A stretch of 64,000 nucleotides of DNA from Halorussus litoreus (GTDB taxonomy: Archaea; Halobacteriota; Halobacteria; Halobacteriales; Haladaptataceae): contig NZ_KZ859513.1 in assembly GCF_003382685.1 (NCBI RefSeq), positions 24,274-88,273 of the forward strand, given 5' to 3'. Positions 47,176-50,688 of this stretch are shown here, piece after piece (position 1 is the first letter of the stretch; the number at the start of each line of letters is the position of its first letter). The position numbers were made by a program, and so were the translations under genes. The notes beneath the pieces were generated by a model. The model searched no databases. It had not been told where the DNA came from and worked only from the letters and a program-made list of their open reading frames with translations.

Positions 47176-47934
47176 ATGAGCGAGGGGAATACCGGCGACC
47201 CTGCCGGCCCGACCGACGGCCAAAATCCCACGGACAACGTCGGGTTCGGCGAGGTGCTACAGGATCTGCGGGCGGGCGGCTGCAACCTGCTCGTCGTCGG
47301 CGACGCGCCGCGCCGCCTGTTCACCGAGGCGAGCGCGAGCCTGCTCGGCGGCCCCGACGAGCGTCGCTACCGGCTGCTCGCCATCACGGACGCCAGCCCG
47401 GGGAGCGTCGCGGAACGACTCCCGGACCCCACCGAGATGCCCGGCTCGTACGAGGAGACGACCGAGATCATCAACCACGCTTCGCCGCCGCGGTCGGTCG
47501 CCGAGGCCGGCGGGAACGCCGACTCGCCATCGCTCGGCGACCTCTCGGAGCGCCGGGTCGTCGACCCGCAGCTCGCTGGATTGCAGGCCGAACTGGCCGA
47601 GGCGATGGCGACGTTCGACGCCCACGCCTCCGGGCTCGACTCGACCGAGCTCCGGGTCGGCGTCGATTCGCTGGACGCGCTGCTGGAGCACTACGACGAG
47701 GGCGTCGTGCGCCGGTGTCTGCAGGTCGTCACGGGCTACGTCGGCGACTACGCGGCGATGGGCCACTACGTGCTGACCGAGCCGTACGAGAGCGAGCGGG
47801 TCCGGTCACTGGCCGGGGAGTTCGACGCGGTGGTCGAACTCCGACCGGTCGATCCGGCCAAGCACGACCACCACGCCGAGGAGCGCTGGCACGTCTCGGA
47901 CCCCGACGTGACGAGCGACTGGCTGCCGATGTGA
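47176..47934 (+). CDS. DUF7504-family (HTR-like/RecA-fold-related) protein
   Basis: A 252-residue acidic protein. It starts hydrophilic, then has GGCNLLVVGDAPRRLFTEAS near residue 35 where RecA/KaiC-like proteins carry a P-loop; here the GKT is absent, so nucleotide binding is doubtful. The end TGYVGDYAAMGHYVLTEPY and VRSLAGEFDAVVELRP matches haloarchaeal DUF7504/HTR-like proteins as I recall them. These are taken to be signalling or sensor-associated modules of unknown mechanism. The gene is 158 nt upstream of, and on the same strand as, the CHAT protein gene, with 28-bp direct repeats between them. Confidence 0.72.
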   Translation: MSEGNTGDPAGPTDGQNPTDNVGFGEVLQDLRAGGCNLLVVGDAPRRLFTEASASLLGGPDERRYRLLAITDASPGSVAERLPDPTEMPGSYEETTEIINHASPPRSVAEAGGNADSPSLGDLSERRVVDPQLAGLQAELAEAMATFDAHASGLDSTELRVGVDSLDALLEHYDEGVVRRCLQVVTGYVGDYAAMGHYVLTEPYESERVRSLAGEFDAVVELRPVDPAKHDHHAEERWHVSDPDVTSDWLPM

Positions 47935-48092: not shown

Positions 48093-50276
48093 ATGCGACC
48101 GCGCATCGACGCACTCGGCGACCGGGCGGGCGTGGAGATAGTCGACCCTATCGAAAGCCACCGATTTCTGCTGTACACGGACCGCGAAGCCTCGCCGACC
48201 CCCGCCGACACCGCGGCGTTCGCCTACCCCGTCTCGGTCGCGAGCGAGTTCGTCGCCGGAGCCGTCGAACTCCCGTACACCGTGACCGTCGTGGTCCGGG
48301 ACGCCAGGGACGGCTCTCACGTGCTCGACGTCGGCTACCGGGAGGACCACGAGCTTCCCCGGGACGACTATCTCGTCGAGGTCAACGCGCCGATGAAGCT
48401 CTACCTTCGGGTCGAGGCCGCGCTGTCGGTCGCCGCGAACACCGACCGCATCGCGATCACCTTCGACGAGGCGGCCGGGGTACTCGTCGGCGCGCGCTCG
48501 CACCACACCTCGCCGGCCGCCACGGTCACGGTCTCGGACGACCCCGCGGACGCGATGGCCGCGATTTCGACGTTTGGCTCCGGGCTGAAGACGACGACCT
48601 GCGAGCGCTCGTGGCCGAACCTCCGCGGGCACCCGCCCCGGGTCGAGCGCGGCGACGAGCTCTCCATCCCGGACGACGTCGGCGTGCCCGACACCGGCGT
48701 CACGCTCCACGTGCCCGCGGACTTCGAGCACGTGTACGCGGTCGCACCGCTGGCGTACTACTTCGGCGCGAACGTGGTGCCGGCGGAGACGCCGCGAGTG
48801 ACCGCCGACACGGGCTTTTCGTACCGCCTCGACGGCGAGCGTGGGTTCGAGGAGGAAGTCGTCCGCTTCCTCAAGCGGGCACTCGTCCTCGACTGCGTGA
48901 CCCGGACCGAGGGGTTCCACCCGATGGACCTCCACGAGCGCCGCGTGCTCGAATCACACCCTGGCGTGGACCTCGACTTCGAGGCGCTGTACGACGCGCC
49001 ACTCGGCGACCAGCTCGCGGCCTACTGCTCGGTGCCGGACGAGGCGCTCGACGCCGCCGCGCCGACGTGGCACCGGGCCACCCACGTCCGACCCGACCCG
49101 GACGCGGTCGAACTCCTCCCGTACGTCGTCGACGACCTCTCGCTGGTCCGCGTGGAGTCGCCAGCCGTCGAAGCGTCTGCGGACGGGAGTTCCACGGACG
49201 TCGAGTCGCCCGGCACGAGTTCCGCGGACGCCGAGTCGCCCGACGGGACCGACCAGACGGCGGCGTTGGAGTCGTTCAAACGCGGGCCGCCCACCGCCGA
49301 CTCTCGCGACGCGGGCGTCCCCGAGACCGACGAGTACGTGCCGCTCCCCGACTCCGACGCCATCGAACGCGCGTGGATCGGCGAGGGTACGCCCGTCCAC
49401 GGCGCGAAGCTGCTACGGGCGGCGTTCGAGCACGACCGGCCCGCGCCGACCGACGGCGTCATCGACGTGATGGTGGTGTGCAACGACGAGGGGATGCGCG
49501 AGGAGTGGGACGCCGTCTCGGACGTGTACGGCGCTGGCGGGGCCAGGGAGGTCGCGCCGTTCGACGTGGACTGCCGGTTCGACGTGCCGACCGACGACCT
49601 CCGGGAGCTGCTCGCGGCCGACCACGACGTGTTCCACTTCGTGGGCCACATCGACGGCCGGGGACTCGCGTGCCCGGACGGTATCCTCGACGCCGAAACC
49701 GTGGAGCAGACCGGCGCGACGACGGTCCTGCTGAATGCCTGTCGCTCGCACGACCAGGGCATCGAACTCGTGGAGGCGGGCGCTCGCGCGGCCATCGTGA
49801 GCTGGGGCGACGTGGACAACGGCGGCGCGGTCGAGGTCGGCGAGACGTTCGCCCGGCTGCTCAACTACGGCTTCGACGTCGGCGGCGCGCTCGAGATCGT
49901 CGAGGAGTACACCGCTATCGGTCGCCACTACGTCGTCGTCGGCGACCCCGGTGTGAGCGTCTCCCAGTGCGTGGACGCGATGCCCCTCCGGTGTGAGTTC
50001 GACCGGGACCCGAACGACCCGCCCGACCCGGACGAGTCGGTCGAGGTGGCCGTCAACGTGTACGCGACCAGCGACCTCGGCGTCGGCGGCGTGACCGAGC
50101 CGTACCTCGGGGACGACGGCGGGCCGAACTACTACCTCGTCCCCGGACGGCTCGACACGTTCACGAACACGGGCAGGGAACTCCGGGAGATGCTCGGTGA
50201 CGACTCGGTCGCCATCGACGCGAACGGGACGCTCCGCTGGGCAGACGCGTGGCTCGGCGGTGAGTCCGCTGAGTAA
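48093..50276 (+). CDS. CHAT-domain (caspase-like) protein
   Basis: A 727-residue protein with a C-terminal CHAT peptidase-like domain (about 425-625). The putative catalytic dyad is His519 in VFHFVGHIDG and Cys550 in VLLNACRSH, and the domain closes with YVVVGDPGVSVSQ, the GDP signature of CHAT proteins. Residues 1-340 are a separate, beta-rich region without a match I know (FLLYTDREASPTPADTAAF, FTYRL). Residues 355-410 are a repetitive Ser/Asp/Glu linker (DVESPGTSSADAESPDG). CHAT domains are caspase relatives that act as proteases in cell-suicide and CRISPR-linked defence systems. An antiviral or programmed-death role here is inference. No membrane segment is seen. Confidence 0.82.
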   Translation: MRPRIDALGDRAGVEIVDPIESHRFLLYTDREASPTPADTAAFAYPVSVASEFVAGAVELPYTVTVVVRDARDGSHVLDVGYREDHELPRDDYLVEVNAPMKLYLRVEAALSVAANTDRIAITFDEAAGVLVGARSHHTSPAATVTVSDDPADAMAAISTFGSGLKTTTCERSWPNLRGHPPRVERGDELSIPDDVGVPDTGVTLHVPADFEHVYAVAPLAYYFGANVVPAETPRVTADTGFSYRLDGERGFEEEVVRFLKRALVLDCVTRTEGFHPMDLHERRVLESHPGVDLDFEALYDAPLGDQLAAYCSVPDEALDAAAPTWHRATHVRPDPDAVELLPYVVDDLSLVRVESPAVEASADGSSTDVESPGTSSADAESPDGTDQTAALESFKRGPPTADSRDAGVPETDEYVPLPDSDAIERAWIGEGTPVHGAKLLRAAFEHDRPAPTDGVIDVMVVCNDEGMREEWDAVSDVYGAGGAREVAPFDVDCRFDVPTDDLRELLAADHDVFHFVGHIDGRGLACPDGILDAETVEQTGATTVLLNACRSHDQGIELVEAGARAAIVSWGDVDNGGAVEVGETFARLLNYGFDVGGALEIVEEYTAIGRHYVVVGDPGVSVSQCVDAMPLRCEFDRDPNDPPDPDESVEVAVNVYATSDLGVGGVTEPYLGDDGGPNYYLVPGRLDTFTNTGRELREMLGDDSVAIDANGTLRWADAWLGGESAE

Positions 50277-50304
50277 GCGGTGAGAAAAACCGGGGGCGCT
50301 CTCC

Positions 50305-50688
50305 TCAGGCCAGTACGTCCGCGTCGAGCAACTTCTCGGCGACGTACTCGGCAGCGGGACGGTCTTCGCTCTCCTCGAAGCGCGCGACGATTCTCGACTC
50401 GCCGTCGACCTCGCGCTCGGCGACGATGGTCGGGATGAGCGTGACCTCGTAGTCGTCGACGCGCTCACCCTGCTTGTCCTCGTCGACCTCGTGGACGCTG
50501 ACCTCGTCGTCCGGGACGCCCGCGGCCTCCAGCGCCGCGAAGAAGTCCGGGAGGGTGTCGTGGCAGTCGCCACACCAGTCGGCCCCCCACACGCGGTAGG
50601 TGACCTCGCCGACCGCGACCTCGAACGCGTCGACGACCTCGCTATGTGCCGCGGCGTCCCAACTCGGAGATGGTTCCGTCGAATCCAT
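50305..50688 (-). CDS. Thioredoxin-family protein
   Basis: A 127-residue thioredoxin fold with the active site WCGDC in WGADWCGDCHDTLPDFF near residue 35 and the cis-proline block VTLIPTIVAERE near 82. It likely reduces disulfides in the cytosol; the WCGDC pattern differs from the common WCGPC. It is convergent with the CHAT gene, 28 nt apart, so it probably belongs to a separate unit. Confidence 0.88.
   Translation of the reverse strand: MDSTEPSPSWDAAAHSEVVDAFEVAVGEVTYRVWGADWCGDCHDTLPDFFAALEAAGVPDDEVSVHEVDEDKQGERVDDYEVTLIPTIVAEREVDGESRIVARFEESEDRPAAEYVAEKLLDADVLA

Follow-up and report, generated by a model that had tools for sequence, protein, structure and literature searches.

A CHAT-type protease homologue of Halorussus litoreus and its candidate coupling to copy-specific micropeptides in Halobacteria

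Known CHAT and separase proteases and the haloarchaeal gene

The CHAT proteases whose function is known work in immunity of the CRISPR, SAVED and gasdermin kinds, and defence genes are usually patchy in their spread. A related protease, the C50 peptidase separase, follows a consensus with an acidic residue at P4 and Arg at P1, and is held inactive by securin. In another area of peptide biology, the precursors of peptide hormones carry multiple tag-like units in one polypeptide. For the archaea in question, work with Haloferax volcanii described a caspase-like protease activity as lacking gene homologues, the gene behind it being unidentified there; the activity took Asp at P1, with none detected on trypsin or cathepsin substrates (PMC3615174).

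The window analysed here, a stretch of 64,000 nucleotides from Halorussus litoreus (contig NZ_KZ859513.1, positions 24,274 to 88,273), encodes a protein that can be compared with these systems (Table 1). Its open reading frame, which starts at ATG, is genuine, and the same frame was called with a high score by a gene finder based on codon usage.

Table 1. Features of the protease locus in the window (positions are those of the window)
Feature	Position	Strand	Basis
CHAT-type cysteine protease homologue, 727 aa	48093..50276	+	ORF, gene call, dyad conservation, AlphaFold2 (AF2) model, Foldseek
N-terminal module, residues 1-346	48093..49130	+	AF2 pLDDT 95, PDB fold comparison and Pfam without a recognised fold, conservation
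Disordered linker, residues 353-422	49149..49358	+	pLDDT <50 at residues 357-386 and 397-405
F395-K-R397, conserved linker FxR motif, predicted self-cleavage site	49275..49283	+	alignment and motif counts
CHAT peptidase domain, about residues 423-620	49359..49952	+	Pfam sub-threshold; Foldseek to SAVED-CHAT, separase, gingipain
Predicted catalytic His519 codon	49647..49649	+	invariant, 88/88
Predicted catalytic Cys550 codon	49740..49742	+	invariant, 88/88
DUF7504 protein, no P-loop, 252 aa, upstream partner	47176..47934	+	Pfam PF24336, 153.5 bits, cut-off 27
Short gap, site of the convergent micropeptide gene in the Halorussus ruber orthologue, gene missing here	50277..50304	.	no micropeptide ORF
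Thioredoxin-family gene, flank marker of the loss, outside the system	50305..50688	-	Pfam thioredoxin; same neighbour in orthologues

The protease domain and the N-terminal module

The AlphaFold2 model of the whole protein reached a pLDDT of 82.8 and a pTM of 0.84, and Foldseek searches with it returned SAVED-CHAT (8tl0, E 4e-7), separase (5fby, 1.5e-6), gingipain R (1cvr, 1.6e-6) and the Craspase TPR-CHAT (2e-4), together with a weaker match to caspase-11 (9e-3). As modelled, residues ~420-620 belong to the CHAT/separase/gingipain/caspase clan, in agreement with a first-pass annotation of this DNA that had read a CHAT-type fold at the C-terminus. The Pfam CHAT family PF12770 matched residues 460-600 with 20.3 bits, and the C-terminal half alone with 22.0, both below the cut-off of 24; judged from its sequence the protein is a divergent member of CHAT/clan CD, and membership of the narrow family PF12770 is not claimed. 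The residues that the same annotation had singled out as a catalytic dyad, in an FxGH ... LNxC context, are conserved in all of the 88 close homologues and also in an alignment of 27 rows. Its reading of a closing "GDP" motif, which follows the last strand, stood in part: G617 is invariant and D618 nearly so, but most relatives have Gly in place of the Pro.

The N-terminal module, which had been taken as a domain of unrecognised type, kept that status. It is beta-rich and then alpha/beta, with the conserved motifs RSxHxxP, KTTxxERSxPxLRGHPP and DCxTRTEG, and its ~346 residues matched no Pfam family, nor was anything convincing found among PDB folds (best E 1.8e-3, TM 0.22). Sequence searches of the PDB with the protein and with its profile and an NCBIfam search of the protein gave no match, and a viral fold library returned a single weak one.

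Comparison with the described systems places the likeness in the protease domain and the differences around it. The resemblance to SAVED-CHAT, the best match, lies in the CHAT caspase-like domain, whereas the haloarchaeal family has no recognised SAVED domain, a different N-terminal module and a linked micropeptide. Separase (5fby, 5fc2, 5fc3) has in common with the window protein the protease fold, and a linker motif of the latter shows the acidic P4 and Arg P1; however, the window protein, of ~727 residues, has no long helical repeat arm, and no cohesin substrate is known in these archaea. Similarly, the type III-E Craspase TPR-CHAT/Csx29 (7y84, 8eey) is alike in its CHAT domain, but the N-terminal module described above is not TPR-like and no cas gene was seen among the neighbours. 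Unlike the gasdermin-linked proteases, the gene has no adjacent gasdermin gene by Pfam search of the flanking genes, and the recurrent partners are instead DUF7503 and DUF7504.

Distribution and gene neighbours

Relatives of the protein are present in 366 of the 392 Halobacteria genomes sampled, often in several copies, the genome of the window holding eight; the nearest named relative is that of Halorussus halobius. Some relatives are plasmid-borne, and none was found in the viral contigs searched. The family is near-core in haloarchaea, with copies kept in stable gene neighbourhoods. Outside Halobacteria, distant relatives occur in four genomes of one family (L168-L171), where they have a common gene neighbourhood, genes that are truncated or uncalled and no clear micropeptide. 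Other homologues (L178-L182, L186, L187) have lost one or both catalytic residues while keeping the N-terminal module, and several stand beside large sensor-like genes; a role as pseudo-protease sensors is possible.

This distribution bears on the proposal of the first-pass annotation that the protein is a cell-suicide or antiviral effector. Such a role would agree with SAVED-CHAT as the top structural match, with the immune functions of the characterised CHAT proteases and with the copies on plasmids. However, a patchy defence gene is unlikely given relatives in almost every genome and eight in this one; moreover, the neighbours are ordinary, no pore-former or nuclease partner was seen, and a PADLOC search of the protein gave no match of note (one marginal JAB match, E 0.02, outside the protease domain). 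Altogether, we consider a suicide or antiviral function improbable. Among ten flanking genes of the paralogues, PADLOC gave a single weak match. That gene, beside one paralogue (L059:2458-4044), weakly matches IetS and is probably an ordinary secreted protease.

The upstream DUF7504 gene on the same strand, already pointed out in that annotation, was confirmed well above the Pfam cut-off. A same-strand DUF7504 gene, upstream or downstream, accompanies seven of the eight CHAT copies in this genome, and 85 of 227 CHAT homologues have one within 1.5 kb. The GxxxxGK motif of a P-loop is absent in 86 of the 87 CHAT-adjacent DUF7504 proteins, and a comparison of CHAT and DUF7504 revealed no sequence relation. 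DUF7504 is also common at sites away from CHAT, which makes it an accessory rather than a marker.

Convergent micropeptide genes

What the earlier picture lacked was a partner: a convergent micropeptide gene lies at nearly all close intact paralogues and has been lost at the window locus. In gene maps of the paralogues, tiny open reading frames run convergently towards the 3′ end of the CHAT gene, typically ones of Pfam DUF7503 (PF24335), a micropeptide of transmembrane (TM) type; no function is assigned to this family or to DUF7504. A profile found such a micro-ORF at 73 of 87 loci, where its stop is mostly offset by -3 to +6 nt relative to that of CHAT, and the micro-ORFs have at -37..-27 an AT-rich block resembling a promoter. 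A scan of 12 whole genomes gave 17 DUF7503 genes over the cut-off, every one of them just 3′ of a CHAT gene and none elsewhere. When convergent frames within -40..+130 nt of the gene stop were counted by the same rule throughout, one ending in Gly-Pro accompanied 147 of 198 CHATs with an intact dyad, 1 of 30 with a degenerate dyad and 0 of 867 control genes. Only about 3 dyad losses are seen on the tree, so that the association of the dyad with the micropeptide is confounded by descent; dyad loss and micropeptide absence go in a consistent direction without reaching significance after correction. Moreover, 34 CHATs, the window copy and 33 others, keep the dyad with no adjacent micropeptide, and a peptide in cis is thus not obligatory. 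One single CHAT gene is followed at its 3′ side by two identical DUF7503 micro-genes in tandem (L177:2529-2800).

In the usual micropeptide a hydrophobic segment is followed by a stretch rich in Ala, then by six hypervariable residues and a final GP. The six residues preceding GP have an entropy of 3.0-3.3 bits, as compared with mostly 1.0-2.9 for the segment ahead of them, and the seven paralogues in the genome of the window have seven different tails. The final Gly and the final Pro are each encoded by any of their four codons, with third positions that vary freely, so that what is conserved is the end of the protein and not the DNA; a conserved DNA element at the CHAT 3′ end, considered in place of a peptide, is ruled out on the same grounds. 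Several Haloplanus-type genomes encode forms that lack the hydrophobic segment and carry the tail unit in tandem as 4-13 identical nonamers, the longest array being 13 x GNSGGISGP in a precursor of 188 residues and the others having 4, 5, 7, 7 and 10 units; these units are identical as protein with varied synonymous codons. The C-terminal unit is common to both kinds of precursor (GNSGAISGP in the TM type, 13 x GNSGGISGP in the repeat type). The longest array corresponds to a coding tandem repeat of 39 nt with 13 units (L133:8046-8612), whose number varies among related species, and each unit is preceded by a spacer (Y/F/S)TAD that makes a caspase-like Asp-Gly junction.

A third form is seen in a deep glyA/folD branch, where unannotated, non-membrane micro-ORFs ending KR(V/I)S(T/S)YGGP are convergent with CHAT (L248-L260, L267); they were picked by their GP end, and their support is therefore the control rate of 0/867. 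Neither the repeat type nor the KRVSTYGGP type (two of the latter tested) matched a Pfam family. The GP is absent in a few lineages, as the micropeptides of Haladaptatus and Natronomonas (L117, L124-L127, L135) stop just short of it, at ..TIS, ..TVS, ..TVG, ..TIA or ..TTG. Tandem tags without a membrane segment, together with unrelated fronts that carry the same type of end, suggest that it is the tail that does the work, and the variable hexamer with its GP tag is probably what functions in the micropeptide. The idea of a membrane toxin as its core function is weakened by the two types lacking a hydrophobic segment.

The same precursors could be read as secreted, pheromone-like signals, in which cleavage of a Sec-like leader behind an Ala-rich A-x-A would release an octapeptide with GP at its end, and CHAT would serve as internal receptor or effector, or as the processing protease. 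The conserved leader, the Ala-rich positions -9..-12, the hypervariable hexamer and the GP end favour this reading, as do the C-terminal unit common to the two precursor types and the several private copies per genome. On the other hand, the repeat and KRVSTYGGP precursors have neither leader nor hydrophobic segment, the hydrophobic segment elsewhere is more conserved than a generic leader would require, and there is no linked exporter or importer, all of which leaves a pheromone quite unlikely.

The linker motif and a possible coupling

A further clue lies in the linker between the two halves of the protein. Its R397 is invariant in the 27-row alignment, and the motif [FY]xR[SGDA] is found in the linker of 160 of 198 intact CHATs (mean of 16.7 and maximum of 30 in shuffled sequences), as opposed to 0 of 12 degenerate ones. 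With the linker Arg taken as P1, acidic residues are enriched at P4 and P5, a resemblance to the separase consensus that suggests the FxR site as the place where the protease may cleave itself. The preference at P1 is ambiguous, with Arg in the linker and Asp in the Haloplanus spacer TAD/GN.

From these elements we propose, as a reading with about even chances of being right, that haloarchaea have a family of CHAT proteases which process themselves and are coupled to copy-specific micropeptides, and that the window protein is one copy of this family. The N-terminal module and the CHAT domain would be tethered by the disordered linker, which the protease would cut after Arg at a [DE]FxR-type site (Arg397), and the cut would change its activity or release both halves. 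A micro-gene placed tail-to-tail with the protease gene and driven by a promoter of its own would give a short peptide bearing the variable hexamer and Gly-Pro at its C-terminus; the cognate protease would bind this end, and the peptide would either set its activity or act as its substrate. In this scheme the P-loop-less DUF7504 protein would be an accessory. A comparison of distances between the peptide tail and the regions of CHAT showed no co-varying region that stands out.

An alternative would be a toxin-antitoxin-like pair of protease and inhibitor, where the micropeptide is a pseudosubstrate that keeps the protease inactive in the manner of securin. In its favour, 29 of the 30 proteases with a lost dyad have no micropeptide beside them, repeats would increase the dose of inhibitor, and both the separase-like fold and the acidic-xxR-like linker motif fit; nevertheless, the intact CHATs without an adjacent micropeptide, the near-universal copies in stable neighbourhoods and the small number of dyad losses make it unlikely.

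The window locus itself has lost its micropeptide gene. A convergent DUF7503 or micropeptide ORF was sought at the CHAT 3′ end and in the window, and none was found, although it is present at the paralogues and in the Halorussus ruber orthologue (L074). The latter retains it, flanked by CHAT and by the thioredoxin gene also present here, in a gap of ~520 nt as compared with 28 nt in the window, which indicates that the micropeptide gene was lost in place; its absence is common to most close orthologues of the window copy. The copy left behind would either escape regulation by a peptide of its own or receive one in trans from another copy.

Altogether, the locus looks less like a sporadic gene for suicide or defence than like part of a peptide-coupled protease system, apparently an undescribed one. 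The literature searched, with few subscription papers among it, holds no mention of DUF7503 or DUF7504 and, on haloarchaeal CHAT proteases or peptide signals, no description of a CHAT-micropeptide pair; an earlier description is possible. More tentatively, and in our view rather doubtful at present, the family might amount to a class-wide archaeal peptide-protease signalling, with several caspase/separase-fold proteases in a genome, a private hexamer and GP tag to tune each of them, and some lineages amplifying the tag to up to 13 identical units. H. volcanii carries both DUF7503 and DUF7504, which makes the family a candidate for its orphan caspase-like activity (PMC3615174), though the activity favours Asp whereas Arg is suggested by the linker motif.

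Should the pairing prove functional, almost all haloarchaea would have private protease-peptide channels, undescribed as far as the searched literature shows, and archaea would gain a peptide-regulated system of caspase fold. The orphan activity of H. volcanii (PMC3615174) would then have candidate genes, DUF7503 and DUF7504 would receive a testable role, and CHAT proteases would be more than effectors of immunity.
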